A DNA stretch of 60,382 nt from a virus. A model generated the notes under the pieces. The model did no database searches. It was given only the letters and a program-made list of their open reading frames with translations, and was not told the DNA's origin. This document shows positions 124 to 15,645 of this stretch, piece by piece. The stretch covers positions 1 through 60,382 of the IMG/VR virus record IMGVR_UViG_3300020470_001595; one strand, given 5' to 3'. The translations under genes and the position numbers were made by a program. Numbering within the stretch: position 1 is the first letter of the stretch; each line of letters opens with the position of its first letter.

Positions 124-3100
124 ATGCCTTTAAATAAGTTAGAGAATTTTATAAAGAATACAGAGGGTAGGATTCTCTATGTAAATCCAAGCGATTTGGA
201 CTCCACCGATAGTATTACTAATCAGGGTAACTCTTTAACAAAACCCTTCAAGACGATACAGAGAGCACTGTTAGAGTCTGCTAGATTTTCATATCAGTCA
301 GGGTTAGATAATGATATAAATGATAAAACTACTATTTTAATATATCCAGGTGAGCACCTTATTGATAATAGACCTGGATTTGCACTTAAACCAGATCCCA
401 CAGATCCTACCAGAGCATTATCTGTATCTCCTGCTGGTGCTGAAACTCTTGCTACAACAACATTTAGTCTTAGCTTAACCAGTGAGTTTGATTTAACTGT
501 AGAAAATAATGCATTATATAAGTTTAATTCAGTTCATGGTGGAATAATTATACCTCGTGGTACATCTATTGTAGGTATGGACCTTAGAAAGACTAAGGTG
601 CGTCCTAAGTATGTCCCTAACCCTACAGATGATAGTGTACCAAACTCTGCTATATTCAGGGTTACTGGTAACTGTTATTTCTGGCAGTTCTCATTCTTTG
701 ATGGTGATCAGAATGGATTAGTATACACTGACCATCAACAGTTTGATACTATTAATCAATCTAAACCAACATTCTCTCACCACAAGTTAACTTGTTTTGA
801 GTATGCTGATGGTATTAATGAAGTTAAGGGATATGATGAGACAGACCTTAGCATGTATTATTATAAGCTAAGTTATGCTTATCAGGAACCAACTGGTCGT
901 GCTGTTAACTATGAGTGGCCAAATGCAGAAGGTGACTTTGATACAGTTCGTGAGGAATATGAAATAGTTGGTGCTCTTGGTACTGACCCATTGGTTATAT
1001 CATCTATTGTATCTGGTGATGGATTAACACCTACATCACAAGTAACAGTAAGAACTCAGATACCACATGAATTAACTGCTGGTACTCCTATTAAGATTAG
1101 TGGAGTTAATGTATCTCAATATAATATTTCTACTATAGTTCAGAGTGTTATATCAACTACTGAGTTTACATATTTAATAGTAGATTTCCCAAGTAATTTA
1201 CCTGCTAAACCCACAAATATTACTTCCGCAAGAGTAACTATTGAATCTGATACTGTCAGAGGTGCATCACCTTATATCTTTAACTGTTCAATGAGATCAG
1301 TTTATGGTATGCAAGGTATGCTTGCTGATGGTACGAAAGCAACAGGTTTCCGTTCAATGGTTGTTGCTCAGTTCACTGGTATCTCACTACAGAAGGATGA
1401 TAGAGCATTTGTTAAATATAATCCAGAGACAAGATTGTATGAATCAATATCATATAGTACAGTTAAAGGTGCTACATTAGCAGCAGAATCTAGTTCTACT
1501 GATCCTAATACTGTTTATCATTTAGATAGTGGTGCAGTATACCGTCCTGGATGGGAACAAGCTCATGTTACGATAAACAATAAAGCACAACTTCAAATAG
1601 TTTCTGTTTTCGCTATTGGATTTAATGCACACTTAAGAGGTGATAGTGGTGCTGACGCATCTATTACTAACTCCAACTCCAACTTTGGACAATATGCTTT
1701 AGTTGCAGATGGATTTAGAAATGATGCCTTCCTAAGAGATGATCAGGGATATATCTCTCATGTTGTCTCTCCTGAATGGGTATCAACATATCAAGAAGAT
1801 TTAGATAATATTACTTGGTTCCAGATTGATGTACCTAAGACACAACAGACTGGTATATCTTCACATTTATATCTCTCTGGATTTACCAGACAGGATGTAG
1901 CACCACTTGGTTTAACTCAAGGTTATAGAATTGGTGCTAATTTAAATGAGAATCTATATGTTTCTATTGGTGGTACTGAATATAGTTCTCCTGTATACAT
2001 GCCAGAGAATGTAACTGCTGGTATACAAACTGCTAATGTTGGAATTAATTCTCATCAAGGAACTAAATTTACACCAGCAAGTTCTCCTAATACCAATTTT
2101 GAATTAACTGTTAATGATATTGGTATTGTTAATGGTGAAACTATTCGTATATTCAGTGATGATGGTGATTTACCTGAGAACCTAGCACCAAATACAGTAT
2201 ACTATGCTATTAGAGTTAGCTCAACTGCACTTAAGATTGCAAGTACATTCTCTAATGCTGTTAATAATATTCCTATTGCCATATATGGTGGTACAAATTT
2301 AAGGATTGAGAGTAGAGTTAGTGACAAATCTCCTAATAGTATAGGACACCCAGTTCAATGGGATGCTAATCAGAATAACTGGTATATATTGAGTGAAACT
2401 AATTGTGATCTTTATGATAATATTGTTAATAATGATTATGTTAAGACATTAGTAGAAACTACTCCTGCATACTTCAAGAGATATGAAGATCGTAGAGGTA
2501 TTGATAATAAATTATACAAGCTTCGTTATGTAATACCTAAGCAAGCAGATAATTCTAGAAATCCTGTTGATGGATTTATTCTTCAACAGTCAGGTCAAAC
2601 TGGTTTTGCTAAGACTGCTGATATTAATGCTACAAGTATTACTCTTAATGATACTAACTATCAAAGAAATTATGGTTTCATTGCTACATGTAGTGAGAAT
2701 AGTGATACTGTTACTGTTAGATGTGAATTACCTCATAATGTTAAGGTAGGTGATATAGTATTCACTGAGAACATTAAAGATTCTAATAATAATACTGGTA
2801 CACCAAATAAAGGATATAATGGTTACTTTACTGTAACTAATGTTCCTAATAATATGGAATATAAGTTCAGTAATACAGACAACTCTGGTGTTAAGAGAAA
2901 CACTGGTAATTATATGGATGAAACTTCTAATAGAACTTTCTTCCTTCCTAGATTTAGTGTTAATGATAACAAAGGAAACTTTAGCATCTATCGTTCAAGA
3001 GTATTATCTGATTGGGTAAAAGATGAGAGTGATGGTGTCTATCTATTAGATGTTGTTGCTGCTGATTATGCACCACCAACAGAATTTACAAGTCAAAAAT

Positions 3101-5379
3101 ACAATCAACAAATTACTGATTTCTATCCACAATTAGATAGAGATAATGTAAGAAAAAATCCACCACCTGCTGTTTCATTTGCAAGAAGAGATCCTATTGG
3201 TAAGGTAGAGACTAATAGTCTTCTTAATTCAATAACAAGAGAATCTATTAATAAGTTCACTACTAACTGGGGTGTAGGTATTGCTATATCTAGTGTTACT
3301 CCTGTATCTGCTGGTATAGCAACACTTCAACTTACTGGTCAGCATGACTTTAATGGTTTTGTTGATTATGAGAATCTTGAATCCTATCATAGTGGTGCAG
3401 GATTTGCTGTTACAACCAAATATAATGTTAGACTATTAGATAGTCTTGGTGGTTGGAATGGTGCAACAGCTAAAGTAACTGTTGGTGTTGGTTCTACTAA
3501 CATCACTGGTGTTGAGATTCAGAGTGTTGGATCTGGATATACTGGTGGGGAACAGTTATTCTTTGAGAATTTTGCTGGTACTTCTATTGGTGTTCCAACT
3601 ACAGGTTTGATTAATGGTATTAATGATGTAGTTCAGGTTACTGGATCTGGTAAGACTGATGGTGGATATTATAGAGTTACTAATGTACCAACAAAAGATT
3701 CTATTGTAGTTGGAATATCTACATTAGATCCAACAATTACTGCACATGAGTTCATTTACAGGGTTGGACCTTCTGTTGCTATTGCATCTACAGACTTTGA
3801 CACTACTACTGGATTAACAACATTTGTTACATCTAATGCTCATGGTTTGAGACAAGGTGGTAAATTCACTCTTGTTAATAGTAATAATAATGAAAAAGTT
3901 GGTGAATACTATGTTCAAACTACATTGACAGGTGTTACTTCATTCACTGCTAAGACAGTTAGTGATCCTGTATTTGTAGCAGGATATAGAATACTTCCAC
4001 ATGCTTTCTCAGATAATAATCAATCAATTAGTGTTGAAGAAGCTATTGGATCTAGATATTTCAACATGTATGATGGTGATAGTGTAGGTATTAAGACTAA
4101 CTTAACCAACACTGATACTTCAATACCTGTTCAACATGCTAGTGGTATTGGTACTGCTAACAGATTTAAGATTGGTGAGTATCTTGAAATTGATGAAGAA
4201 ATTGTAAGAGTATCCACTACTGGATTGAGTGGATCTAATAATGATTCACTTACAGTTCTTCGTGGTCAATTAGGAACTATTCCTAAACCACATACTATTG
4301 ATTCTCTTGCTAAAAAGATAAAGGTATTAGCTGTAGAGACTAGACGACCATCTATTATGAGAGCGTCAGGTCATACATTTGAATACCTTGGTTTTGGTCC
4401 AGGTAACTATTCAACTGGTTTACCTCAAGTTCAGAACAGAACTCTAACTGATACTGAAGAATATCTTGCTCAAGCACAGAATAGAAGTGGTGGTTCAACT
4501 GTTTATACTGGATTAAATAACAGAGGTGACTTCTATATTGGTAATAAGAGAATTTCATCAGCAAGTGGTAAGGAATCTTCATTTGGTATTCCTATTCCTA
4601 CTATTACTGGTGAGGATCCATCTGCTAACTCTATTGTAGTTGATGAAATTACAGTTAAGCAGAGAATTAATGTTGAGGGTGGTATTCAACAGAATATCCT
4701 GTCACAGTTTGATGGTCCTGTTACATTTACCAATGATGTAAACTTCACTGGTAAGGTTGTATCTAGTGGTAGTATTGAACTAGCAGGTGATATAGCATTT
4801 ACTGGTCAATTCCCAGATGGTGCTAGAGTTAACAATGTTCGTATTGGTGTTGGTACTCAGAATACTGAGATTACTACTGAACCCAATATTGGTGATTTGA
4901 TTCTTAATGCTGCACCTGGATTTAAAGTTGCTATTGCAACTGATACTGCATATTCTGCAGAAGTTAACTTCAATGATACTGTTAGATTCACTGGATTTAC
5001 CACAATGAGTGGTAATTTCTTCCATAGTGGTGCAGGTGCTACATTCTGTGGAGGTCCACTCCATTGTTGTGATGACATTGTTGCTTTCTATGGTCAAACA
5101 TCTGATGTTAACCTTAAAGAGAATGTCACTATCTTGGATAGTTCATTAGAGAAATTAATGGGCATCCGTGGTACTGAATATGATTGGAAAGAAGGACATA
5201 AGAGCTACACTGGACATGACATTGGTGTCATTGCTCAAGATGTAGAGAAGGTTCTTCCTGAAGCAGTCTCAACTAAACCTGATGGCACTAAGGGTGTCCA
5301 CTATAATAAACTAATTCCTCTATTAATTGAGGCAGTCAAAGACTTGTCACAACAAGTCGATGACATCAAAGATAAATAA
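124..5379 (+). CDS. Large virion/tail-fibre protein with S74 self-cleaving chaperone domain
   Basis: A 1751-residue virion protein. The N-terminus (about residues 18-75, with PFKTIQRALLESARF and IYPGEH) resembles the start of parallel beta-helix, pectate-lyase-like phage fibres. The long middle is beta-rich with Gly/Thr/Asn repeats and YTGG-type turns. Residues 1660-1751 match the peptidase S74 intramolecular chaperone: SDVNLKENV at 1660-1668, then the conserved Y-W, GVIAQDVEKVLPEAV and YNKLIPLLIEAVK blocks. In this family the chaperone trimerises the fibre, then the Ser/Lys dyad (here probably S1660 and K1665) cuts it off. It is first in a fibre gene series and has its own late-type box upstream. 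Host target unknown. Confidence 0.8.
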   Translation: MPLNKLENFIKNTEGRILYVNPSDLDSTDSITNQGNSLTKPFKTIQRALLESARFSYQSGLDNDINDKTTILIYPGEHLIDNRPGFALKPDPTDPTRALSVSPAGAETLATTTFSLSLTSEFDLTVENNALYKFNSVHGGIIIPRGTSIVGMDLRKTKVRPKYVPNPTDDSVPNSAIFRVTGNCYFWQFSFFDGDQNGLVYTDHQQFDTINQSKPTFSHHKLTCFEYADGINEVKGYDETDLSMYYYKLSYAYQEPTGRAVNYEWPNAEGDFDTVREEYEIVGALGTDPLVISSIVSGDGLTPTSQVTVRTQIPHELTAGTPIKISGVNVSQYNISTIVQSVISTTEFTYLIVDFPSNLPAKPTNITSARVTIESDTVRGASPYIFNCSMRSVYGMQGMLADGTKATGFRSMVVAQFTGISLQKDDRAFVKYNPETRLYESISYSTVKGATLAAESSSTDPNTVYHLDSGAVYRPGWEQAHVTINNKAQLQIVSVFAIGFNAHLRGDSGADASITNSNSNFGQYALVADGFRNDAFLRDDQGYISHVVSPEWVSTYQEDLDNITWFQIDVPKTQQTGISSHLYLSGFTRQDVAPLGLTQGYRIGANLNENLYVSIGGTEYSSPVYMPENVTAGIQTANVGINSHQGTKFTPASSPNTNFELTVNDIGIVNGETIRIFSDDGDLPENLAPNTVYYAIRVSSTALKIASTFSNAVNNIPIAIYGGTNLRIESRVSDKSPNSIGHPVQWDANQNNWYILSETNCDLYDNIVNNDYVKTLVETTPAYFKRYEDRRGIDNKLYKLRYVIPKQADNSRNPVDGFILQQSGQTGFAKTADINATSITLNDTNYQRNYGFIATCSENSDTVTVRCELPHNVKVGDIVFTENIKDSNNNTGTPNKGYNGYFTVTNVPNNMEYKFSNTDNSGVKRNTGNYMDETSNRTFFLPRFSVNDNKGNFSIYRSRVLSDWVKDESDGVYLLDVVAADYAPPTEFTSQKYNQQITDFYPQLDRDNVRKNPPPAVSFARRDPIGKVETNSLLNSITRESINKFTTNWGVGIAISSVTPVSAGIATLQLTGQHDFNGFVDYENLESYHSGAGFAVTTKYNVRLLDSLGGWNGATAKVTVGVGSTNITGVEIQSVGSGYTGGEQLFFENFAGTSIGVPTTGLINGINDVVQVTGSGKTDGGYYRVTNVPTKDSIVVGISTLDPTITAHEFIYRVGPSVAIASTDFDTTTGLTTFVTSNAHGLRQGGKFTLVNSNNNEKVGEYYVQTTLTGVTSFTAKTVSDPVFVAGYRILPHAFSDNNQSISVEEAIGSRYFNMYDGDSVGIKTNLTNTDTSIPVQHASGIGTANRFKIGEYLEIDEEIVRVSTTGLSGSNNDSLTVLRGQLGTIPKPHTIDSLAKKIKVLAVETRRPSIMRASGHTFEYLGFGPGNYSTGLPQVQNRTLTDTEEYLAQAQNRSGGSTVYTGLNNRGDFYIGNKRISSASGKESSFGIPIPTITGEDPSANSIVVDEITVKQRINVEGGIQQNILSQFDGPVTFTNDVNFTGKVVSSGSIELAGDIAFTGQFPDGARVNNVRIGVGTQNTEITTEPNIGDLILNAAPGFKVAIATDTAYSAEVNFNDTVRFTGFTTMSGNFFHSGAGATFCGGPLHCCDDIVAFYGQTSDVNLKENVTILDSSLEKLMGIRGTEYDWKEGHKSYTGHDIGVIAQDVEKVLPEAVSTKPDGTKGVHYNKLIPLLIEAVKDLSQQVDDIKDK
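5371..5378 (+). promoter_or_regulatory. Late-promoter-like box GATAAATA inside the preceding stop region
   Basis: GATAAATA spans the last Asp-Lys codons and the TAA stop of the 1751-residue protein, 29 bases before the ATG at 5408. Sequence and spacing match the box at 57010. It would give the next fibre gene its own late transcript. Confidence 0.5.
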
Positions 5380-5407: not shown

Positions 5408-8122
5408 ATGCCTAGCAATTATAAAACCGTCATCAATTTTAGAGATGGGATCCAGGTAGATACTGATGATCTGATCTCTAATAATGGTCTGGTCGGTATC
5501 GGAAGTACCATCCCCAGACAACAACTCGATGTTCGAGGTAATGTAATTGTCGATGGCGTATCAGAATTTAATAATGTAAATGTTACTGGTGTAACTACAT
5601 TCTTCAATGTTGTTAATGTTGCCAGTGGATCGTCAGTAGGTATAGGAACCACGGTTCCAGAGGAGGCATTTCAAGTTGGTGTAGGTAGTACAGGGGCAAC
5701 GATCAGTCTTGCTGGTGTTATTACAGCAACTAAATTTGTAGGAGATGGATCAGAATTAACTGGAATACCTGCTTCAGTGTGGGTAAATCCAGGTGCAGGA
5801 GATACGATATATTCTACTAAAATTGTTGGTATAGGTACTACTTTAACACGAGATAATGCTGGATTTGGTGTAGGTTATGAAATCTACATGGATCCTGTAT
5901 CTGGTGTTGGTACATTTGAAGGTATAGTAGCAAAGAATTTAACAGTTACAAATACAACAGGTGCAGGTCAGGGTAATGTTAATGCTGATGTTGGTACATT
6001 CTCTACGGTAACTGCAACCTCACAAATTACTGCTCCACAATTTATTGGTACTGTTACAAATGCTACTAGAGCAGTAGTAGCAGCAGGTTTAACAGACTCT
6101 CCTAATATTGCTGTTAATTATATTAATGGTGTTGGTGGTACATTTACTGGTATAACTAGCTTCCAAACTCTAAGAATTAGTGGTGGAGTTATTGGTGAAG
6201 CAGGAATTATTACTGCTACCACATTTAGTGGTAGTGCCACGACTGCCCAAAATGCAGCAATAGCATATGGAATTGCTGGTGATCCTGATATCCAAGTAGA
6301 TAAACTAACTGTTAATGGTACTACACCAACCACTATTAAAGGTACTGGTGTCAGCACGATTGGTTCTGTTCTTAATGTTGGTGAGTTCCTAGGTGTTGGT
6401 GATACTGCATCTGCTGTAGGACAAGCAGCAGGATTTATTGGTACTGTTAGAATATCTGATGGAGACTTAATACTTGGTGGTAGTATTTCTATTGGTGGTA
6501 GTCTTGTAGGTACTGTACCTCTTGGTGGTACTCAAGAGATTAATGAATTAATTGTTGGTGCTGGTTTATCTGTTGCTGGTGTAACTACATTCACTGGATC
6601 TGTGAGTGGTGGTGCTGATTTCAATGTAACAGGAACTGTTACAGGTGGTGAGATAGATTCTCAAGATAGTATTATAGCAGGTGGTGGTATAACTTGTGGA
6701 AGTGGGATTGTTGTTGGTACTACTGTAGCTGGTTCTTCAATTACCATTAGCAATGGTGGTGGAATGATAATTGGTAGTGGTATCACTATGAATGGTCCTA
6801 TTCAGGGTGCTACAGATATAGTAATGAATGGAAACCTTAGTGGCATGTCTTCTATTGCTGCTAGTGGTGAAATTACTGGTGTCACAGACATTTCTGCATC
6901 TGGACAACTTAGTGGTATTACTACCATAGCTATGGCAGGTGCTGGTGAGTTTAGTGGTGTTAATAGAATAACTGGTATTGGTTCTATTATTGGTAATGGT
7001 CAATGGATTACAACTTCAATTATATCTGCTGGTCATTTGAGAGGTGAGTTAATAGATCAAACTCCTGCTGGTATAGCAACACTAGGTACAGTAAATTGTT
7101 CTGTTCTTAATGTAAATACTGGTGGTAAATTTGACTTTAATAATGCTACTGGAATTGTCTCTTGTGTTGCTCTTAATGCACCTGAAGGGTTAAGTACAGT
7201 TAGTAATCTTCGTGTTACAAATGGAAATGATACCTACATGTTTGCTAGGTATATTGGATTTAACACTTCTGTTCCTAAAATTACTGATGGTCAAGAAGTT
7301 AATGGTGCAGCAGCAGAGATATATGTTGATGGTGAGACAATGGGAATTGGTATCGGATCTACTGGAGGTCAGAGATTAGACGATGCTAGATTCTATGTTG
7401 GATATGCAAGAACTCAGGGTGGTGGAATAGACAATACTACTTCAATATTTGAGTGTGGTAATATTGGTATTGGTACTACATCTGTTCAATCATCAAGTAA
7501 TGGTGTTGAGTCTGTAAATATCTACAGGAATGTAAACTTCTATAATAATCATACTGGAGTTGCTGGAACTGCTGGTATTGGAACTAATATAGTTCAGGTA
7601 GGATTTAATTCAGATCAACCTGGTGGTGCTCTTGACATGAGATATGCAGGTGGTCCATTATGTCTACCAATAGCTGATGGAGATCAAGATGGTGCAGGGT
7701 TCTCATACTTCCACACAGAAGGAGATGCTACAGGTAACCTATGGTTCAGTAAGCATGACATGTCTCTTAAAGTTGGCATGGGTAATGGAAGTGGAAACTA
7801 TATTGGATTAAAGACTGATACATTTGGCAAGGAACTTAATGATTATCAAGCGATAAGAGGATGGAGAGGACCAATATTTACAAGTAATGCCTCTAAAAAT
7901 GCACAAGCACCACAATTACCACCTGAACAACCAGTTGGATGGGCAACGGCAAATATAGGTTATTATCTCCCAACTAACCAGTTCCAACACTTTGGTGATG
8001 ATGGTGTATGGAGGTCACATGTTGGTAGTGCAACCACTGGGGTTGAATTTATAATCAACGGAACTACTGCTATACTAAATGTAGTAGGGGTTGGTTCTAT
8101 TACATTGGGAACACTATCATAG
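5408..8122 (+). CDS. Tail-fibre-like virion protein with GIGTT repeats
   Basis: A 904-residue protein made almost wholly of short beta-strand repeats rich in Gly, Thr, Ile and Val. The N-terminus has GLVGIGSTIPRQQLDVRG and then SVGIGTTVPEEAFQVG, copies of the GIGTTxPxxxLxVxG module common in phage fibres and also present in the unfinished fibre gene at the window end. The middle (about residues 170-590) is a long series of ITATTFSG-like strands typical of trimeric beta-helical fibres. No catalytic motif is seen. It lies between the S74 fibre and the collagen-like gene, so a distal tail or fibre role is inferred. Confidence 0.75.
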   Translation: MPSNYKTVINFRDGIQVDTDDLISNNGLVGIGSTIPRQQLDVRGNVIVDGVSEFNNVNVTGVTTFFNVVNVASGSSVGIGTTVPEEAFQVGVGSTGATISLAGVITATKFVGDGSELTGIPASVWVNPGAGDTIYSTKIVGIGTTLTRDNAGFGVGYEIYMDPVSGVGTFEGIVAKNLTVTNTTGAGQGNVNADVGTFSTVTATSQITAPQFIGTVTNATRAVVAAGLTDSPNIAVNYINGVGGTFTGITSFQTLRISGGVIGEAGIITATTFSGSATTAQNAAIAYGIAGDPDIQVDKLTVNGTTPTTIKGTGVSTIGSVLNVGEFLGVGDTASAVGQAAGFIGTVRISDGDLILGGSISIGGSLVGTVPLGGTQEINELIVGAGLSVAGVTTFTGSVSGGADFNVTGTVTGGEIDSQDSIIAGGGITCGSGIVVGTTVAGSSITISNGGGMIIGSGITMNGPIQGATDIVMNGNLSGMSSIAASGEITGVTDISASGQLSGITTIAMAGAGEFSGVNRITGIGSIIGNGQWITTSIISAGHLRGELIDQTPAGIATLGTVNCSVLNVNTGGKFDFNNATGIVSCVALNAPEGLSTVSNLRVTNGNDTYMFARYIGFNTSVPKITDGQEVNGAAAEIYVDGETMGIGIGSTGGQRLDDARFYVGYARTQGGGIDNTTSIFECGNIGIGTTSVQSSSNGVESVNIYRNVNFYNNHTGVAGTAGIGTNIVQVGFNSDQPGGALDMRYAGGPLCLPIADGDQDGAGFSYFHTEGDATGNLWFSKHDMSLKVGMGNGSGNYIGLKTDTFGKELNDYQAIRGWRGPIFTSNASKNAQAPQLPPEQPVGWATANIGYYLPTNQFQHFGDDGVWRSHVGSATTGVEFIINGTTAILNVVGVGSITLGTLS

Positions 8123-8132
8123 GTAATTAAGT

Positions 8133-10046
8133 ATGGCAGCACCTGATTGGTCGAATACCACACAAAAGTTACTTAAAACTGCTAATATACCAAATAATAC
8201 TGAGATATCATTTGGTCAGATTAGAGCAGCAATAGGTGACACAACAAAATCTATTGGAGCATCAGAGTGGCATAGGATCACTGATCTTGATGCACCCTAT
8301 AATTTTCCATCTGTACCCACAACATCTACTCCACATTTACCATATATCTTAGATGCCACCGAAAATGCTGGCATACCTACTAGTGGTGCTATATCTCCTA
8401 ATCAAATTAAGGATGTTGTTAAAGAATATGTTATTGAACAAGATCCTAATAAACAGGAAGAAGAGTTTGATGTTGGTACTCTTACAGGACCAGACACACC
8501 TACTGCTAGTGTAAACTGGAATTCAAATTTAAACAAGAATATTACCAAATATCTTAAGATTAGAGGAAGAGTAATATCTGATGATGTTAGTAAACCTGCT
8601 GTATCTATTGCTAGCTCAGCATCATCTAATCTTAACATATATGTGAACAATTCACCTGCTGGTGATGGTGTCATGGCATGTGGTGGTGCTAAAGGAGTAT
8701 CATCTGGACAACCTGGTGGTCATGCTATTAGTATTACCAACCCATCTGCACCTGCTACTCGTGTAGTCTATGTTGAGTGTGAAGGTAATGAGTCTAAGAT
8801 ATGGGCAGGAGGTGGTGGAGGATATGATGGTGTTGATGGAGTAGATGGAGTTAGTGGATCAAACTGGACTGGTAATGGTACTGATGGTGTAGATGGAAAT
8901 TCAGGTAATCCAGGATCTCCAGGTAATAATGGTACACCTGGCAATCCTGGAAGTGATGGATCTCCAGGTAATTCAGGTAATTCAGGATCTCCAGGAAATC
9001 CTGGTCAATCTGGTAACCCTAACTTCTCTATGCCACCAGGTCAGTGGTGTTGGTCATCATATAAATGGCGAAGAGTTGCTGGTACTGGTACTCAACAGCA
9101 AAGTATAGCTCATGTAAGAAGTAGTAGACGAAGAGAATGGTGGAGTAGATATCCTAGTAGTAATACAACATACTCTCAGAATACAATAACAATAACAACT
9201 AGAACTAACCAACAGTACCTTGTACAAGAGTGTCAACCTTGTTCAGGTGGATCTGGTGGTTCAGGTGGACAGGCAGGATCTGGTGGATCTGGCGGTGGTG
9301 CTGGTGGCGGTGGATCAGGTGGATCTGGAGGAAATGCTGGTGGTGGAGGATCTGCTGGTGGCGGTGGATCAGGTGGATCTGGAGGTCAGGGTGGATATAA
9401 AGGATATGGAGGATTCAATGGTACAAAGGGTTTCAAAGGATATGCAGGATCAGGATCATCTGGTAGAGGGTGGACTAACTTATCGTCTCCTTTAAGTAGT
9501 AGTGGAGGAAATCCTGGCAACCCAGGTAACTCAGGTGGAGGAGGAAATCCTGGAAACCCAGGTACACCAGGCAATCCTGGTAATGATGGTACTTCTGGAA
9601 CTCCAGGCAACTCAGGAAATCCTGGAAACTCAGGTAACTCAGGTGGAGGAGGTGGATCAGGAACTCCAGGTAATGCTGGAACTCCAGGTACACCAGGCAC
9701 TCCTGGAAGTGGACCTGGATGTCTAGGAGGAATTCCAGGTAATGCTGGAACTCCAGGAAATCCTGGTTCTGGAGGTAATTCAGGAAATCCAGGCAATCCT
9801 GGAAGTGATGGAAATCCTGGAAATCCAGGCAATCCAGGTGGTGATGGAAATGATGGAAACCCAGGTACACCAGGCAATCCTGGAGGTAGTGGTCAACCTG
9901 GTACACCTGGCAATCCTGGTCAACCTGGAGTTGCTGGTGGTGACTGGGGTAAATCCAATCCTGGCGGTGGTGCTGCTGGTCGTGCTGTGGCAGGATCTAA
10001 ATATACCGTCATCCCTAATGGAGGTGACATTAGAGTAATCTACTAA
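8133..10046 (+). CDS. Collagen-like virion fibre protein
   Basis: A 637-residue protein with a non-collagenous N-terminal domain (1-~225), a Gly-X-Y block at about 255-296 (14 triplets), an aromatic/Arg-rich interruption at about 297-365, a Gly-Ser-rich linker, and a long second collagen block from 459 to about 612 broken once at GSGPGCLGG. Triplets are mainly GNP, GTP, GSP, GNS and GSD; proline is almost always in position Y, directly before the next Gly. Collagen-like blocks occur in many phage fibres, where they trimerise. The C-terminus ends in a short non-collagen cap. The next gene, 6 bases downstream, is a prolyl-hydroxylase-like dioxygenase, so hydroxylation of this protein is a plausible inference. 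Confidence 0.85.
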   Translation: MAAPDWSNTTQKLLKTANIPNNTEISFGQIRAAIGDTTKSIGASEWHRITDLDAPYNFPSVPTTSTPHLPYILDATENAGIPTSGAISPNQIKDVVKEYVIEQDPNKQEEEFDVGTLTGPDTPTASVNWNSNLNKNITKYLKIRGRVISDDVSKPAVSIASSASSNLNIYVNNSPAGDGVMACGGAKGVSSGQPGGHAISITNPSAPATRVVYVECEGNESKIWAGGGGGYDGVDGVDGVSGSNWTGNGTDGVDGNSGNPGSPGNNGTPGNPGSDGSPGNSGNSGSPGNPGQSGNPNFSMPPGQWCWSSYKWRRVAGTGTQQQSIAHVRSSRRREWWSRYPSSNTTYSQNTITITTRTNQQYLVQECQPCSGGSGGSGGQAGSGGSGGGAGGGGSGGSGGNAGGGGSAGGGGSGGSGGQGGYKGYGGFNGTKGFKGYAGSGSSGRGWTNLSSPLSSSGGNPGNPGNSGGGGNPGNPGTPGNPGNDGTSGTPGNSGNPGNSGNSGGGGGSGTPGNAGTPGTPGTPGSGPGCLGGIPGNAGTPGNPGSGGNSGNPGNPGSDGNPGNPGNPGGDGNDGNPGTPGNPGGSGQPGTPGNPGQPGVAGGDWGKSNPGGGAAGRAVAGSKYTVIPNGGDIRVIY

Positions 10047-10052
10047 TTTATT

Positions 10053-10655
10053 ATGTCATTTTATCCTATATTACCTCATCCTACATTTGATGAGGTTGAC
10101 TTTGCTACTTGGGAAGATGGATTCACTAATGATGAGTGTAATGAAATTATCCGTCTTGGTGAATCTCTTGATGCTAAGGATTCTACAGTAGGTGGTAAGG
10201 TTGAGCAAGGCAATGCTGTAAATAATGACATTCGCAAGTCATTAAACTCTTGGTTATCTGTTAATGATGAAACTGATTGGTTATACAATAGATTAGCTAA
10301 CATCTCTAGGTGTCTCAATGGGATGCACTGGAGATTTGATATTTCAGGGTTTAGTGAAGATTTACAGTATACCAGATATAATGATGATAAATCATTTTAT
10401 AATTGGCATATTGATAGTGGAGTAAATAAATCAGATCATCCTCAAAGGAAACTGAGTCTTACTCTACAATTATCTGAACCAGATGAATATGAAGGTGGTG
10501 ACTTTCAAATACATGGTAGTAGATTAAATACACTACCTAAAAAGAAAGGATTACTCATAGCATTTCCTAGCTATTCTTTACATCAAGTTACACCAGTTAC
10601 AAAAGGTATTAGAAGGAGTCTAGTTGTATGGTTATGCGGTCCACCGTTTCGTTAG
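10053..10655 (+). CDS. 2OG-Fe(II) dioxygenase, prolyl 4-hydroxylase-like
   Basis: A 200-residue enzyme of the 2-oxoglutarate/Fe(II) dioxygenase fold. The facial triad is visible as H119 and D121 (NWHIDSG) with distal H177 (SLHQVTPV), and R188 in RRSLVVW fits the Arg that binds 2-oxoglutarate. The YEGGDFQIHG and KGLLIAFPS strands are typical of P4H/PiuC-type hydroxylases. The family hydroxylates proline or other side chains using O2 and 2-oxoglutarate. It begins 6 bases after the collagen-like gene, whose Gly-X-Pro-Gly repeats suit a collagen-type prolyl hydroxylase. The substrate is inferred, not shown. Confidence 0.85.
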   Translation: MSFYPILPHPTFDEVDFATWEDGFTNDECNEIIRLGESLDAKDSTVGGKVEQGNAVNNDIRKSLNSWLSVNDETDWLYNRLANISRCLNGMHWRFDISGFSEDLQYTRYNDDKSFYNWHIDSGVNKSDHPQRKLSLTLQLSEPDEYEGGDFQIHGSRLNTLPKKKGLLIAFPSYSLHQVTPVTKGIRRSLVVWLCGPPFR

Positions 10656-10717: not shown

Positions 10718-11902
10718 ATGAAAAACACACACCTTGAGCATCTCGAAGATAACATTCTCAACGCTGGTTCTACTGGTGGATTGGAGACTGTTGACTTCCT
10801 GAAAGATTTTGGAAATATGCTTACAGGTAAGAAGAGTGATATTTCAATCTCAACCAAATGGGATGGAGCTCCTGCTATTGTATGTGGCAGAGACCCAGTA
10901 AATCATAGGTTCTTTGTTGGTACTAAATCAGTATTCAATAAGGTTAATCCTAAAGTATGTTATGATGATACAGATATAGATCGTTATTATCAAGCAGAGG
11001 TACTAAGAAGGAAACTTAAGACTTGTTTGAAGTATCTCTCACAAACTGGAATAGTTGGAGTGATGCAGGGTGATCTGCTGTTTACTGAAGAGGATAAGAA
11101 ATTTGCTAAGATAGGTGGCAAACAAGTGGTCACTTTCCAACCTAATGCTATTACATACGCTGTGCCTGTTGATTCACTCAAGGGAATTAGCGTGATGGAA
11201 GCAAAGTTGGGTTTGGTACTTCACACACTCTATATTGGTGAAACTCTTCAGGATATGAAGGCAGTATTTAATCCTAATTGGCAATTCCATACTATTCATA
11301 CTGATGAAAATATATTCATAGCTAATGCTAATTTTGCTGATGAAGCAGGTGTTGCTAAATTTAATGTTAGGGAATCTGCTAAGTTTACTGCATTGATTAA
11401 TAGAGCAACTGGATCATTGAAGAGATCATCTGAGTTCTTGAATATTATTCATGACTATGGTGAGTCTAAGTTTATTATGGCAATATTGTTTAAGAAGTTC
11501 TTCAATGATAGGATTCGTAAAGGTCAAGGAATTGTTGATACTAAAAGAGTAGCATCTGATTTTGCACAATTCTATTCTATCAGAATGGATGAAGAAATTG
11601 ATAGTAAGAAAACAGAAAAGACTAAATCGAAATATATTGAAATGAAACGCAATGGACTAGCATTTATTGCTAAGTATGAGCAGGAGATATATTTTACTGT
11701 TGCATCTTACATTTCAGTTCGTACTGCTAAGAAGATGATAATTGATCAGTTGAATAAAGTTAAGGAAATTGAGACATTTGTTGACAACATACCTTCACAA
11801 CCAGAGGGTTATGTGGTATCATATAATGGAAAAGCACTAAAGTTTGTCGATGATGACTTTAGAAGGGCAAACATTACAGTCACTAAATCATGGCAACCGT
11901 AG
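10718..11902 (+). CDS. Nucleotidyltransferase/ligase-fold protein (KWDG motif)
   Basis: A 394-residue protein from ATG 10718; the frame is open from 10628, but that earlier start would overlap the dioxygenase and the promoter. It shows the motif series of covalent nucleotidyltransferases (DNA/RNA ligases, capping enzymes): motif I K47-W-D-G50 in STKWDGAPA, a motif-III-like QGDLLF at 117-122, motif IV E363-G364 in PEGYVVS, and motif V K375 in ALKF. That supports a protein forming a lysyl-AMP or -GMP intermediate, but no accessory nucleic-acid domain is recognisable and cyanophage relatives are usually annotated as unknown. It overlaps the next gene by 13 bases. Confidence 0.55.
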   Translation: MKNTHLEHLEDNILNAGSTGGLETVDFLKDFGNMLTGKKSDISISTKWDGAPAIVCGRDPVNHRFFVGTKSVFNKVNPKVCYDDTDIDRYYQAEVLRRKLKTCLKYLSQTGIVGVMQGDLLFTEEDKKFAKIGGKQVVTFQPNAITYAVPVDSLKGISVMEAKLGLVLHTLYIGETLQDMKAVFNPNWQFHTIHTDENIFIANANFADEAGVAKFNVRESAKFTALINRATGSLKRSSEFLNIIHDYGESKFIMAILFKKFFNDRIRKGQGIVDTKRVASDFAQFYSIRMDEEIDSKKTEKTKSKYIEMKRNGLAFIAKYEQEIYFTVASYISVRTAKKMIIDQLNKVKEIETFVDNIPSQPEGYVVSYNGKALKFVDDDFRRANITVTKSWQP

Positions 11903-12153
11903 CAACATTCAAAGACTTTATTAAAGTCAGGGAGTACATCTACCTTAAGTATGAGTATTATGCTAATTTGGGTAGAATGAGGGAAAATCTATCACCTGAA
12001 GAGGAGTTGGAACAACAAGCATGTTGGGAACTAATCAGGGATTTGAAGGGATTTCTTGATAATGTAGAGGAGAACTTTGAAGATCCTGATAGAGTGAATG
12101 ATTTCTTGATTGATGATAAAGTAGTACCTATCAATCCAATGTGGAATGACTAA
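11890..12153 (+). CDS. Hypothetical acidic helical protein
   Basis: An 87-residue protein starting inside the preceding gene (13-base overlap) and overlapping the next by 8 bases, so it is translationally coupled within the enzyme island. It is predicted mainly helical, with a Tyr-rich N-terminal helix (EYIYLKYEYY) and an acidic middle (SPEEELEQQ). I do not recognise a family. Confidence 0.75.
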   Translation: MATVATFKDFIKVREYIYLKYEYYANLGRMRENLSPEEELEQQACWELIRDLKGFLDNVEENFEDPDRVNDFLIDDKVVPINPMWND

Positions 12154-12730
12154 ATTTCAAGTTTATGATAACTTTTTGTTACCATCATATGCTAATTACT
12201 TAGAAACTTTAATGTTATCTAAGAGTATTAAATGGGAACATCAAGATCATATGGATCATGATGATAGCTATCCACAAAAGGTTCTAGGGATTCTTGATGA
12301 AGGGTATAGTATAGCACATAATACAATGTACCATGCACTTGCAGGTATGATTGGTCAAATAATAGATCAATTAATGCCTGATCAACATCCTGTTAGAATT
12401 AGAGGAGTTAAACAACGCAATATTACTGATAATATTCAATTTTATCCACCACACACAGATATGACTGATGATGGTGGGTATAGTTTAATATATTATCCTA
12501 CTGATTGTACAGGTGATACATATTTGTTTGCAGAGAAAGATATAAATGATGTATCATTTGTAGAAAATAATGATACATCAAATTATAATTGGGAACCTAC
12601 CGATCAAGTTTCACCAAAGAAGAATAGAATGATAGTATTTCCTTCTAATAATTATCATGCAGGATCACCACCATTAGAGATAAGATATTTAATTAATTTT
12701 AATTTCCTACCACTAAATAATCTTACCTAA
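12146..12730 (+). CDS. Second 2OG-Fe(II) dioxygenase
   Basis: A 194-residue dioxygenase distinct from the one at 10053. The triad reads H103 and D105 (YPPHTDMTDDGG) and H171 (NNYHAGSPP), with R180 (EIRYLINFNF) as the likely 2-oxoglutarate anchor. The RMIVFPSN strand before the distal His is typical of the fold. It is small, with no extra domain, and lies 9 bases before the tandem halogenase-family genes. Members of this group act on proteins, nucleobases or small metabolites; the neighbours suggest tailoring chemistry but do not fix the substrate. Confidence 0.8.
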   Translation: MTKFQVYDNFLLPSYANYLETLMLSKSIKWEHQDHMDHDDSYPQKVLGILDEGYSIAHNTMYHALAGMIGQIIDQLMPDQHPVRIRGVKQRNITDNIQFYPPHTDMTDDGGYSLIYYPTDCTGDTYLFAEKDINDVSFVENNDTSNYNWEPTDQVSPKKNRMIVFPSNNYHAGSPPLEIRYLINFNFLPLNNLT

Positions 12731-12739
12731 AGTATTACT

Positions 12740-14098
12740 ATGTCCAGAAAAATTGCTGTAATTGGTGCATGTATGGAGGGTTTCCTTCAATTATGTGACT
12801 TAGTTAATAATAAAAGATATGGAGAAGGTTTAACAACATATAAAGATGATGAATATGTATTGATACATGATCCCAGTAAAGCAAGTCCATTCTCATTAAC
12901 TGGTGCTGGTTTAGCATTTCAGGAGATGATGGAGTCAGAGATATTCTTTACTAAAAGATGGTTGAAGAAATATTGTGATGCTGTTGAGGGTTGTGGTTAC
13001 AAATATATTGGATGGGGTAATAGGAGAGATAAGAACTTTGTGGTTCAAGGTTGTAGTCATATGTTTGATATGGATATGTTTAGAGCAGAATTTATTAAAG
13101 ATGGTGGAAAGATATTTGGTGATTTTGTTACTATAAAAGAAGAGAAGATTGATTCATTCTCAGTAGATGAAGATAAGGTTAGTATTAATGGTGCTGAGTA
13201 TGATTATGTCATTGATTGTAGTGAAGAATTGCCTATGATTGGTGAGGAGGATTATATGAATCCTTCTGTTATGTTTACCAATAGCTATGCATTAATAGAA
13301 AAACCAATACCAGGTGATTTTAATTATACTATACAATATGCTGCAAAACATGGTCATGTTACTGGATTACCATATCAAAGTAAACAAATATGGGTATATT
13401 TGTATGATAATGAGATAAGCACAAGAGCAGAAGTTTGGGAAGATTTTAAATCTATATTCCCTGATGAGGATATGTCAGAGTATAAGAGTTATGAATCTAC
13501 ATTTAGACCAAGAGTATCTAATTATATACTAAACCCAAACAATAAAAGATATTTTAGGAATGGTAATGCACTAATTAATATAGATCCTGGAAGTCCTGGA
13601 ACAAGTGCTCAATATAGTATGTTTGCTTCAGCACAGATTTGTAGGTATCTATTTAATGAAGCAGCAAGAAATGATGAGATAGTTAGTCAAGAATTGCAAT
13701 TAAATTATAATCATTATGTACTGCAAACTTTGCAGTCATTTATATGTTTCTCTTATCAGTATGGATCAAGATATGATACACCATTCTGGAATAAAGTATC
13801 AAAGGAGGCAAGAGAATATCTTGATGAACCATATTTTACCATGCCATCTATATTTCCTGGTAAACCAGTATCACAAATATTAATTAATGACACATTTAGT
13901 GAAGAAGATTATAGAATATCACATCATGTTGATCAGGGTGAAGGTGCTAAACTATTACCTTATGATTGGATGAATAATTCTAATATGTTCTATGAATATG
14001 CTATTGGATTAGGTGCGCCATATGCAGATAAATTGAGTAGGTTAGGTGATACTGATCCCCCTGAAGATTTTGGTACTATTTGTTATGATTGTTTATGA
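12740..14098 (+). CDS. Degenerate FAD-halogenase-family protein
   Basis: A 452-residue protein with an N-terminal Rossmann-like strand (KIAVIGACMEGF) whose GxGxxG is altered to G-A-C-M-E-G. Overall layout, including an FAD-fold INIDPGSPGTSAQ region and a helical C-terminus with YDTPFW near the neighbour's DDSPFW, follows the halogenase next door. The WxWxIP block, the GVGEGT loop and the catalytic-lysine segment are missing or unrecognisable. It may be a non-catalytic partner or an enzyme with changed chemistry. Its stop overlaps the next start (ATGA), so the two are probably made together. Confidence 0.6.
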   Translation: MSRKIAVIGACMEGFLQLCDLVNNKRYGEGLTTYKDDEYVLIHDPSKASPFSLTGAGLAFQEMMESEIFFTKRWLKKYCDAVEGCGYKYIGWGNRRDKNFVVQGCSHMFDMDMFRAEFIKDGGKIFGDFVTIKEEKIDSFSVDEDKVSINGAEYDYVIDCSEELPMIGEEDYMNPSVMFTNSYALIEKPIPGDFNYTIQYAAKHGHVTGLPYQSKQIWVYLYDNEISTRAEVWEDFKSIFPDEDMSEYKSYESTFRPRVSNYILNPNNKRYFRNGNALINIDPGSPGTSAQYSMFASAQICRYLFNEAARNDEIVSQELQLNYNHYVLQTLQSFICFSYQYGSRYDTPFWNKVSKEAREYLDEPYFTMPSIFPGKPVSQILINDTFSEEDYRISHHVDQGEGAKLLPYDWMNNSNMFYEYAIGLGAPYADKLSRLGDTDPPEDFGTICYDCL

Positions 14099-15645
14099 TT
14101 AAGAATATTATTATTGTTGGTGGTGGTACTTCAGGATTAGTTACTGCTGCAATGTTTCAGGATTTCTGGAAACAAAAAGCTAATATATCTGTAATATATG
14201 ATCCAAATAATAAAACTATTGGTGTTGGTGAAGGTACTACACCTAGTTTTACTGATGTATTAAAGAATACTCTGGGTTATAGTACAGAGGATTGTATTAG
14301 ATCTTTAGATGCAACTATTAAATTAGGAGTTAAATTTAAGAATTGGATACCTAATGATGAATATTATCATGGATTTGGTCAAGTAGTCAATGATCTTGAT
14401 GGTAACCAAAATGAAGAATTGACAGATAATGTAGCATCTCTTCATGCATTATTAAATGATAAGTATACTGGTGGTGTTAATTTCAATGAAGCAACTACAA
14501 ATATACCTACTGATTTAAAAGACTATCATTTTGCATATCATATAACAACAGATAAATTAGTTGAGTTTTTGTTTAGATATTTAAAAGATAGAGTAACACT
14601 TATTCCTGATAAAGTAATAGAGGTAAACTCTGATGGTGAGAATATACAAAATATAATATGTGAGAAGACAGGTACATATGAAGCAGATTTATTTGTTGAT
14701 GCAACAGGGTTTGATCCTATTTTAATGAAGGAATTAAACAATGAGTGGGTAGACTTATCAAATCATTTACCTATTGATAGTGCAATTCCTCAACCAGTAG
14801 ATAATAATACTGGTAGTATTCCAACATATACTTTATCTGAAGCAACTAAACATGGTTGGATATGGCAGATACCAACTAGAGAAAGATTTGGTACTGGTTA
14901 TCTATATTCTTCTAAATTTACATCTGATGATGAAGCAAAGGAAGATTATAATAAATGGTTAATTAAGAATCATGGTGTAGGATTAGAGTCAAATAGAATA
15001 ATTAAATGGAACTCAGGACATTGGAAGAAGGCATGGGTAGGTAATTGTTTTGCTGTTGGATTGTCTGGTGGTTTTATCGAACCACTTGAGGCATTAACAC
15101 ATCAATATCTAACCTTTATGGTTGATAGCTTTATGAGTTTGAATTCTACATTAAAACACTTACAGTATAACAGAGATAGATTAAATATGGTACAAACTAG
15201 AATATTCTTTGATTATACACAGTTTCTTAATTTACATTATTGTACAAATAGAGATGATTCACCATTCTGGAGACATATGACTGCTAATAAAACTGAATGG
15301 GTCAGAACTATTGAAGAGAAATGTAAACATGAGTTCTTAGATCTCTTTAGAACTGATGATATGTTAGATTATTGGGGTCACGATAATTATATACAGGTAA
15401 TGAATGGAATTCATATGTTTAATAAAGATGCAATTAAAGATTTCATTAACTCAAGATTTTCAACTGAAGATTTAATGAGTGAATCTAGGAAACAAGATGA
15501 ATTCATTGAGTTTATGAAAAGAAAGATGGCATTTATAGATCATAAAGAATATCTTGATGAATTGCAACTGGTTGAAGATGAAGAGTATACAATAGGTAAA
15601 GAGCTAGAGACACTCAAAGAACCGTCCACCCTACCATACATTTAA
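14095..15645 (+). CDS. FAD-dependent halogenase (tryptophan halogenase family)
   Basis: A 516-residue flavin halogenase; I use ATG 14095, which overlaps the upstream TGA, rather than a TTG 6 bases earlier. Visible motifs: FAD-binding G9-G-G11-T-S-G14; GVGEGTTPS at 43-51; K80 in GVKFKNW, aligning with the catalytic Lys of PrnA-type enzymes; WIWQIP at 255-260, the family hallmark WxWxIP; and GGFIEPLEA at 325-333. Such enzymes use FADH2, O2 and a halide to make enzyme-bound hypohalous species. A cyanophage relative (VirX1 of phage Syn10) is reported to iodinate varied substrates. Substrate here unknown; no flavin reductase is nearby. Confidence 0.85.
   Translation: MIKNIIIVGGGTSGLVTAAMFQDFWKQKANISVIYDPNNKTIGVGEGTTPSFTDVLKNTLGYSTEDCIRSLDATIKLGVKFKNWIPNDEYYHGFGQVVNDLDGNQNEELTDNVASLHALLNDKYTGGVNFNEATTNIPTDLKDYHFAYHITTDKLVEFLFRYLKDRVTLIPDKVIEVNSDGENIQNIICEKTGTYEADLFVDATGFDPILMKELNNEWVDLSNHLPIDSAIPQPVDNNTGSIPTYTLSEATKHGWIWQIPTRERFGTGYLYSSKFTSDDEAKEDYNKWLIKNHGVGLESNRIIKWNSGHWKKAWVGNCFAVGLSGGFIEPLEALTHQYLTFMVDSFMSLNSTLKHLQYNRDRLNMVQTRIFFDYTQFLNLHYCTNRDDSPFWRHMTANKTEWVRTIEEKCKHEFLDLFRTDDMLDYWGHDNYIQVMNGIHMFNKDAIKDFINSRFSTEDLMSESRKQDEFIEFMKRKMAFIDHKEYLDELQLVEDEEYTIGKELETLKEPSTLPYI

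Follow-up and report, generated by a model that had tools for sequence, protein, structure and literature searches.

A collagen-like, probably gp38-like tail-fibre adhesin of marine phages and the adjoining 2OG-Fe(II) oxygenase, its candidate hydroxylase

In the gp38 adhesins of phages S16 and PP01, PGII helices are packed in a lattice and the receptor is bound by hypervariable loops, an arrangement called the 'polyglycine sandwich'. Collagen-like proteins of prokaryotes normally carry proline at position X and threonine at position Y of their Gly-X-Y triplets (PMC8968730). Marine cyanomyoviruses encode numerous 2OG-Fe(II) oxygenases, several per virus, and a role of these genes in DNA repair has been proposed as a guess (PMC9146016). 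A literature search found no paper tying a phage 2OG oxygenase to the hydroxylation of a collagen-like fibre.

The whole stretch of DNA analysed here (the window) comprises 60,382 nucleotides of the virus record IMGVR_UViG_3300020470_001595, and the tail-fibre, tail-protein, adhesin and oxygenase genes mapped in this section lie on its plus strand. A fibre operon starts with the gene of a 1751-aa tail fibre protein (124-5379; phrog_529, tail fiber, E=0), followed by the gene of a 904-aa tail protein (5408-8122; phrog_3269, tail protein, 3e-13), which is also the upstream neighbour of the adhesin gene in nearly all relatives. The next gene (8133-10046) encodes a collagen-like protein of 637 aa, assigned as a gp38-like tail-fibre adhesin on the basis of its match to PF01391, its 37 homologous loci and the annotation of a homologue in Synechococcus phage S-SRM01. 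Only 6 nt (TTTATT) separate it from the gene of a 200-aa 2OG-Fe(II) oxygenase of the prolyl-4-hydroxylase (P4H) superfamily (10053-10655; PF13640, phrog_61 and AF2 fold matches). The original prediction had described this pair as a collagen triple helix and the hydroxylase that stabilises it, and an ORF check of the window gave the same coordinates for both reading frames and the same gap. No close isolates were found by DNA search. The listed start of the following ORF, which encodes a DUF6267 protein, overlaps the end of the oxygenase gene by 28 nt (10628-10655); since the Pfam match in this ORF begins at residue 33, the true start is probably a later ATG near 10718.

The adhesin begins with an attachment and beta-rich domain (residues 1-225; 8133-8807), delimited by the conserved alignment and by low-confidence AF2 strands at residues 98-224. 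It continues with Gly-X-Y run 1 (residues 226-296, 71 aa; 8808-9020), in which proline at Y stands in the second half, and with an Arg/Trp-rich loop (loop 1, residues 297-371; 9021-9245) varying in length and sequence independently of the Gly-runs. By analogy with the hypervariable loops of gp38, loop 1 is putatively distal and receptor-binding. Run 2 (residues 372-441, 70 aa; 9246-9455), a Gly-rich stretch without proline and a putative central helix, is followed by a hinge with an RGW motif (residues 442-458; 9456-9506), conserved in the alignment of relatives. Runs 3 and 4, of the Gly-X-Pro type, have a short Cys-containing turn between them (residues 459-603, 145 aa; 9507-9941), and the protein ends with a C-terminal segment (..GRAVAGSKYTVIPNGGDIRVIY; 9942-10043) that is again conserved among the relatives.

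Regular triplets were found at residues 249-296 (16 triplets), 373-441, 459-527 and 533-604. The 14 triplets noticed before at residues 255-296 fall inside the first of these stretches, and the Gly-X-Y blocks of that earlier map are real, although it missed the Pro-free Gly-rich run at 373-441. PF01391 (Collagen) matches the fibre with 35.2 bits, above the curated cut-off of 27.2. Among the 92 triplets proline occupies Y in 35 cases and X in none, a split with a probability of about 3e-11 under equal chances for the two positions; runs 3 and 4 contribute 27 of the prolines at Y (Y-Pro) and again none at X (X-Pro). The remark that the only proline elsewhere lies near GSGPGC is correct inside the repeat block but not for the whole protein, which contains 60 prolines, 17 of them before residue 255. 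Viral contigs were scanned for any 15-triplet Gly-X-Y stretch, which yielded an unbiased sample of 113 ORFs, each holding 14 or more triplets; proline was restricted to Y in 0/113 and to X in 24/113. Together with the published X-Pro/Y-Thr norm, this result makes the fibre unusual. The pattern was present in all 37 relatives (X-Pro 0-2, Y-Pro 22-43). Lysine at Y is absent from eight loci of the adhesin family and the X residues interchange among N, T, Q and S, and Y-Pro is the sole hydroxylatable repeat residue preserved throughout. Open frames with Pro-Gly repeats on the antisense strand (9386-9906) are a by-product of the repeat codons, because GGN NNN CCN encodes Gly-X-Pro on both strands. 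A PDB match to 8zxl ('spindlefibril/axialfibril', 1e-51) was rejected as homology, being a similarity of repeat to repeat (GAPGAPGSQG repeats).

The lengths of the runs were compared across 23 distinct members of the adhesin family, with boundaries set by inspection of mechanical phase runs; automatic segmentation gave weaker correlations because it mis-split a Gln-rich loop. The Gly-runs span 46-89 aa in these members and vary in step (r 0.97-1.00). Run 1 correlated with run 2 at r = 0.98 (0.93 with independent contrasts), and run 2 with runs 3+4 at r = 1.00 (0.99 with independent contrasts), whereas the length of loop 1 did not track that of the runs in the same 23 members. In all relatives runs 3+4 together are as long as twice run 2 plus about 2-8 aa. 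Equal lengths of successive runs separated by loops are unexpected unless the runs lie alongside one another, which argues for four PPII/PGII helices side by side in one chain. Run 2, with 62% Gly across relatives and Pro-free in the window, is probably the core of such a bundle. The AF2 model of the fibre was unusable (pLDDT 38) and was therefore kept out of the fold search, so the bundle reading rests on the covariation of lengths. At 3.1 A per residue the rods would be about 20 nm long.

The isolate relatives of the N-terminal domain that were found are two records of phage S-SRM01. The homologue in this phage, annotated 'gp37-gp38 adhesin tip complex' (E 3e-4; 34% identity across 35% of the query), lies in the same fibre operon. 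Its parts follow each other as in the window's adhesin, but its runs are only a few triplets long; it contains a single Y-Pro, and its gene does not have the enzyme gene beside it. We therefore prefer to see in the fibre a gp38-like tip adhesin and not a simple collagen triple helix; its four locked runs would make it a much elongated version of the gp38 type. The three conserved N-terminal tryptophans of the S16 type are absent, W6 being the only invariant one before residue 129 in the family alignment, so likeness to gp38 is claimed rather than membership.

The oxygenase domain matches PF13640 (2OG-FeII_Oxy_3; 59.7 bits, 5.9e-16) and the PHROGs family phrog_61 ('2OG-Fe(II) oxygenase', 1.3e-37). 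The iron ligands H119 and D121 of the HxD motif (10407-10415), the third ligand H177 and the basic 2OG-binding residue R187 (10581-10613) are invariant in 81/81 relatives. The two histidines and the aspartate had been correctly named before, but the arginine had been given as R188; this residue varies among Q, R and K and was rejected as 2OG ligand. In Foldseek searches with the AF2 model (pLDDT 88) the closest PDB folds were the P4H of P. putida (4iw3; 6.6e-11, TM 0.72), PHD2, the viral P4H (vCPH) of PBCV-1 (5c5t) and an algal P4H (3gze), and the PKHD enzyme 3dkq was also close (3.2e-10); the best PDB sequence and profile matches are PKHD-type hydroxylases. Tyr116, at -3 from the HxD motif, and Arg132 in the following strand are invariant in the family and common to PBCV-1 vCPH, and the corresponding PKHD traits (Phe at -3, no Arg) were not seen in the alignment to 3dkq and 9ghl. 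Collagen P4Hs use lysine as the ligand of the 2OG C5-carboxylate. This lysine is absent here, Arg187 taking its place in all relatives. The earlier label of a prolyl-4-hydroxylase-like enzyme therefore holds: by its modelled fold the enzyme belongs to the P4H superfamily, with an arginine 2OG ligand, and its residue specificity is unreadable from sequence.

A search with the N-terminal domain of the fibre recovered 37 related marine viral loci, 53-88% identical in that domain. The enzyme is the next gene in 37/37 of these loci, in 36 of them at 4-10 nt and in one with an insertion of 849 nt. Conversely, all enzyme matches of at least about 53% identity belong to this same family of pairs, including that on L009, a contig which ends before the fibre gene. 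The relatives share the gene order of the operon (tail fibre, tail protein, adhesin, enzyme, DUF6267 and usually halogenase-like genes), so that the 37 loci are not independent and the full count partly reflects shared descent. In the nearest short-rod relatives, those of the S-SRM01 type with 1-3 Y-Pro, the adhesin gene does not adjoin an enzyme gene, and in further short-rod adhesin loci the enzyme is a neighbour in 0/15; the more distant P-SSM2 and AG-345-F15 have 2-4 Y-Pro and likewise no adjacent enzyme. Two pairs of the window's family were met in cellular MAGs, one of Euryarchaeota (L625, PBPH01000014.1) and one of Rhodobiaceae (L626, NYTN01000080.1); both are apparently misbinned phage contigs.

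The window also encodes a further 2OG oxygenase, which belongs to a different family (12146-12730; phrog_274), and 2-5 different 2OG genes stand in tandem near tail genes in many phages, e.g. HTVC008M, S-RSM4 and Mosig. Two tryptophan-halogenase-like genes follow at 12740-15645, one with a weak and one with a strong match to PF04820. In S-SRM01 and most of the loci L581-L594 the gene immediately before that of the short-rod adhesin encodes a halogenase, and the loop of this adhesin is rich in Trp and Cys. Halogenation of adhesin tryptophans is possible.

Beyond the adhesin family, enzymes of the same family directly adjoin at least eight other collagen-like genes (L041, L078, L251, L258, L424, L484, L515 and L639), from overlapping to 90 nt away. 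These collagens are mostly unrelated to each other by type and position and include GPT, GPP and GXP types. The last locus is on a contig binned as bacterial (Acidimicrobiales MAG CALKPY010000100.1, 1-1685), where a GTPGADGTPGIDG collagen-like gene is followed, after 26 nt, by the gene of an enzyme relative of 38% identity. Among distant phage relatives with enough flanking sequence, a Gly-rich Gly-X-Y protein was encoded within 2 kb in 34/39 loci, which show several gene orders and many of which are closely related to each other. On 7 contigs with a single Gly-rich gene the enzyme lies within 1.2 kb of it, closer than 83-96% of genes. The adjacency of enzyme and collagen is thus a robust signal, real and recurrent. 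It fades around 35% identity. For cyanophage enzyme relatives at this level, 5/12 isolates encode a Gly-rich protein no more than 2 kb away (four listed within that distance and HTVC033P, where the runs of the adjoining Gly-rich protein lack Y-Pro); for cellular relatives the count is 4/52 loci, L625 and L626 included. Cultured phages with an enzyme relative near a Gly-rich gene include the Pelagibacter phages HTVC033P and Mosig and Synechococcus phage S-CAM8.

The position of proline had been offered as a further clue, with the suggestion to test whether it tracks the presence of the enzyme. Within the adhesin family it does, long-rod members (22-43 Y-Pro) having the enzyme and short-rod members (1-3 Y-Pro) lacking it, which amounts to one contrast. 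Across other viral collagens it does not, as the profile of the enzyme sub-family, applied to the 5 kb around each gene, found a match for 9/94 collagens of the X-Pro type and for 0/25 of the Y-Pro type. Since X-Pro collagens outside the adhesin family also pair with the enzyme, Y-Pro was rejected as a general marker, and proline position is a suggestive clue in the adhesin family only. Four Y-Pro records (L136, L147, L215 and L225) carry other PF13640 enzymes; Y-Pro collagens with charged X residues gave no PF13640 match, in keeping with the charge-based stabilisation known for bacterial collagens (PMC8968730). The contig IMGVR_UViG_3300017754_004939 encodes a phage protein of 2462 aa in which 637 Gly-X-Y triplets were counted, along with 383 Y-Pro and 1 X-Pro, and a different 2OG enzyme lies 2.2 kb downstream of its gene.

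We propose that the gene at 8133-10046 encodes the long-tail-fibre tip adhesin of a T4-like marine (Kyanoviridae-type) phage. The protein would work like the polyglycine sandwich of T2/S16 phages, with rods several times longer than those of its short-rod relatives: runs 1-4 would form four left-handed PPII/PGII helices of equal length, packed alongside each other within a single chain, and the variable loop 1, which links run 1 to run 2, would probably touch the host. Proline is restricted to Y, a position at which helix-helix bonding can probably do without the backbone NH. The enzyme would act during or just after translation of the adhesin, its most probable targets being the 22-43 X-Pro-Gly prolines, and hydroxylation would give a stiffer and more stable rod. 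P4Hs act on extended PPII chains, and Y-Pro is the best candidate target both for this reason and because of its preservation as the sole hydroxylatable repeat residue. Judging from the sequences, hydroxylation of the adhesin by the enzyme, probably at the Y-prolines, is the most likely function of the pair; the joint reading of a gp38-like four-helix long-rod tip adhesin, hydroxylated by the product of the next gene, stands at about an even chance.

Three other explanations have to be weighed. The homotrimeric triple helix of the original prediction, stabilised by a collagen-type prolyl 4-hydroxylase, would account for the PF01391 match, the Y-Pro pattern and the fold of the enzyme, and it is in triple helices that hydroxylation of X-Pro-Gly is known. 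It gives, however, no need for four loop-separated runs to co-vary in length, and it is at odds both with the composition of run 2 and with a homologue annotated as a tip of the gp38 type, of which the S16 protein is a monomer with PGII helices. The locked runs point instead to an intrachain bundle, and the triple helix is not supported; we consider it quite unlikely. The enzyme could also modify the adhesin away from the Y-prolines, at Asn, Asp or Lys of the repeats, in loop 1 or in the N-terminal domain. 2OG oxygenases hydroxylate Asn, Asp and Lys too, and relatives of this enzyme adjoin collagens of the X-Pro/Y-Thr or Y-Lys-rich types and Gly-rich proteins nearly devoid of Y-Pro. Against such targets, neither Y-Lys nor X-Asn is conserved in the adhesin family, whereas Y-Pro is, and the closest folds are those of prolyl hydroxylases, so that this explanation appears distinctly improbable. 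Lysyl hydroxylation as the obligate conserved purpose was rejected, as Y-Lys is absent from eight loci that keep the enzyme.

Alternatively, the enzyme may serve elsewhere, in hydroxylation of host EF-Tu or a ribosomal protein or in DNA repair, and stand here by the mere abundance of 2OG genes near tail genes. The number of such enzymes in cyanomyoviruses and their proposed part in repair would fit, as would the closest single fold match, a P. putida P4H that modifies EF-Tu, the synteny of the operon, and the frequent location of distant enzyme relatives away from Gly-rich genes. Against coincidental placement stand the immediately adjoining collagen-like genes, seen in one bacterial MAG and in several phages unrelated to each other, the seven contigs on which no more than 1.2 kb separates the enzyme from the single Gly-rich gene, and the related short-rod adhesin loci that lack the enzyme. 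We regard a function elsewhere as unlikely. Hydroxylation of the adhesin thus remains our preferred reading. Its extension to a dedicated system of tailed phages, in which a 2OG oxygenase beside collagen-like or PGII fibres hydroxylates their prolines and which would explain one family of cyanophage oxygenases, is put forward a little more tentatively, at somewhat less than an even chance.

The locus gives one functionally unexplained family of cyanophage 2OG-Fe(II) oxygenases a concrete, testable candidate substrate. The recurrent adjacency and the pair kept in 37/37 loci suggest that phages may use chemistry to harden the fibres they make, much as animals treat their collagen. If so, these would be the first hydroxyproline-bearing phage fibres, stabilisation of PPII fibres by hydroxyproline would extend beyond eukaryotes and giant viruses to phages, and maturation of the host-binding tip would need oxygen and 2-oxoglutarate. 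Small prolyl hydroxylases of this kind might also serve for making hydroxylated collagen in bacteria.

Compared with described systems, the adhesin resembles gp38 of the T2 type (S16, coliphage PP01) in being a putative tip adhesin encoded after the long-tail-fibre genes, with Gly-rich stretches, probably helical, that are separated by variable loops; it differs in having four long equal runs of 46-89 aa where gp38 has ten short motifs, in its proline richness at Y and in its partner hydroxylase. The enzyme shares the fold, the HxD..H triad, the Tyr at -3 and the following Arg with vCPH of Chlorella virus PBCV-1 (5c5t), the B. anthracis enzyme 3itq and PPHD of P. putida (4iw3). Unlike these viral and bacterial P4Hs, it has a C-terminal half nearer to the PKHD type and a candidate substrate adjacent to it, and unlike collagen P4Hs it has Arg, not Lys, as the 2OG-binding residue. 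The PKHD-type enzymes PiuC (9ghl) and Sbal_3634 (3dkq) are its best PDB profile matches and share the H-x3-P-V-x2-G-x-R motif, but in them position -3 is Phe and the aligned Arg is missing. The nearest precedent is the hydroxylation of collagen lysines in Mimivirus, which likewise encodes both a collagen-like protein and its own 2OG hydroxylase (PMC8968730); there a lysyl hydroxylase/glycosyltransferase belongs to a giant eukaryotic virus, whereas here the partner is the adhesin of a tailed phage.
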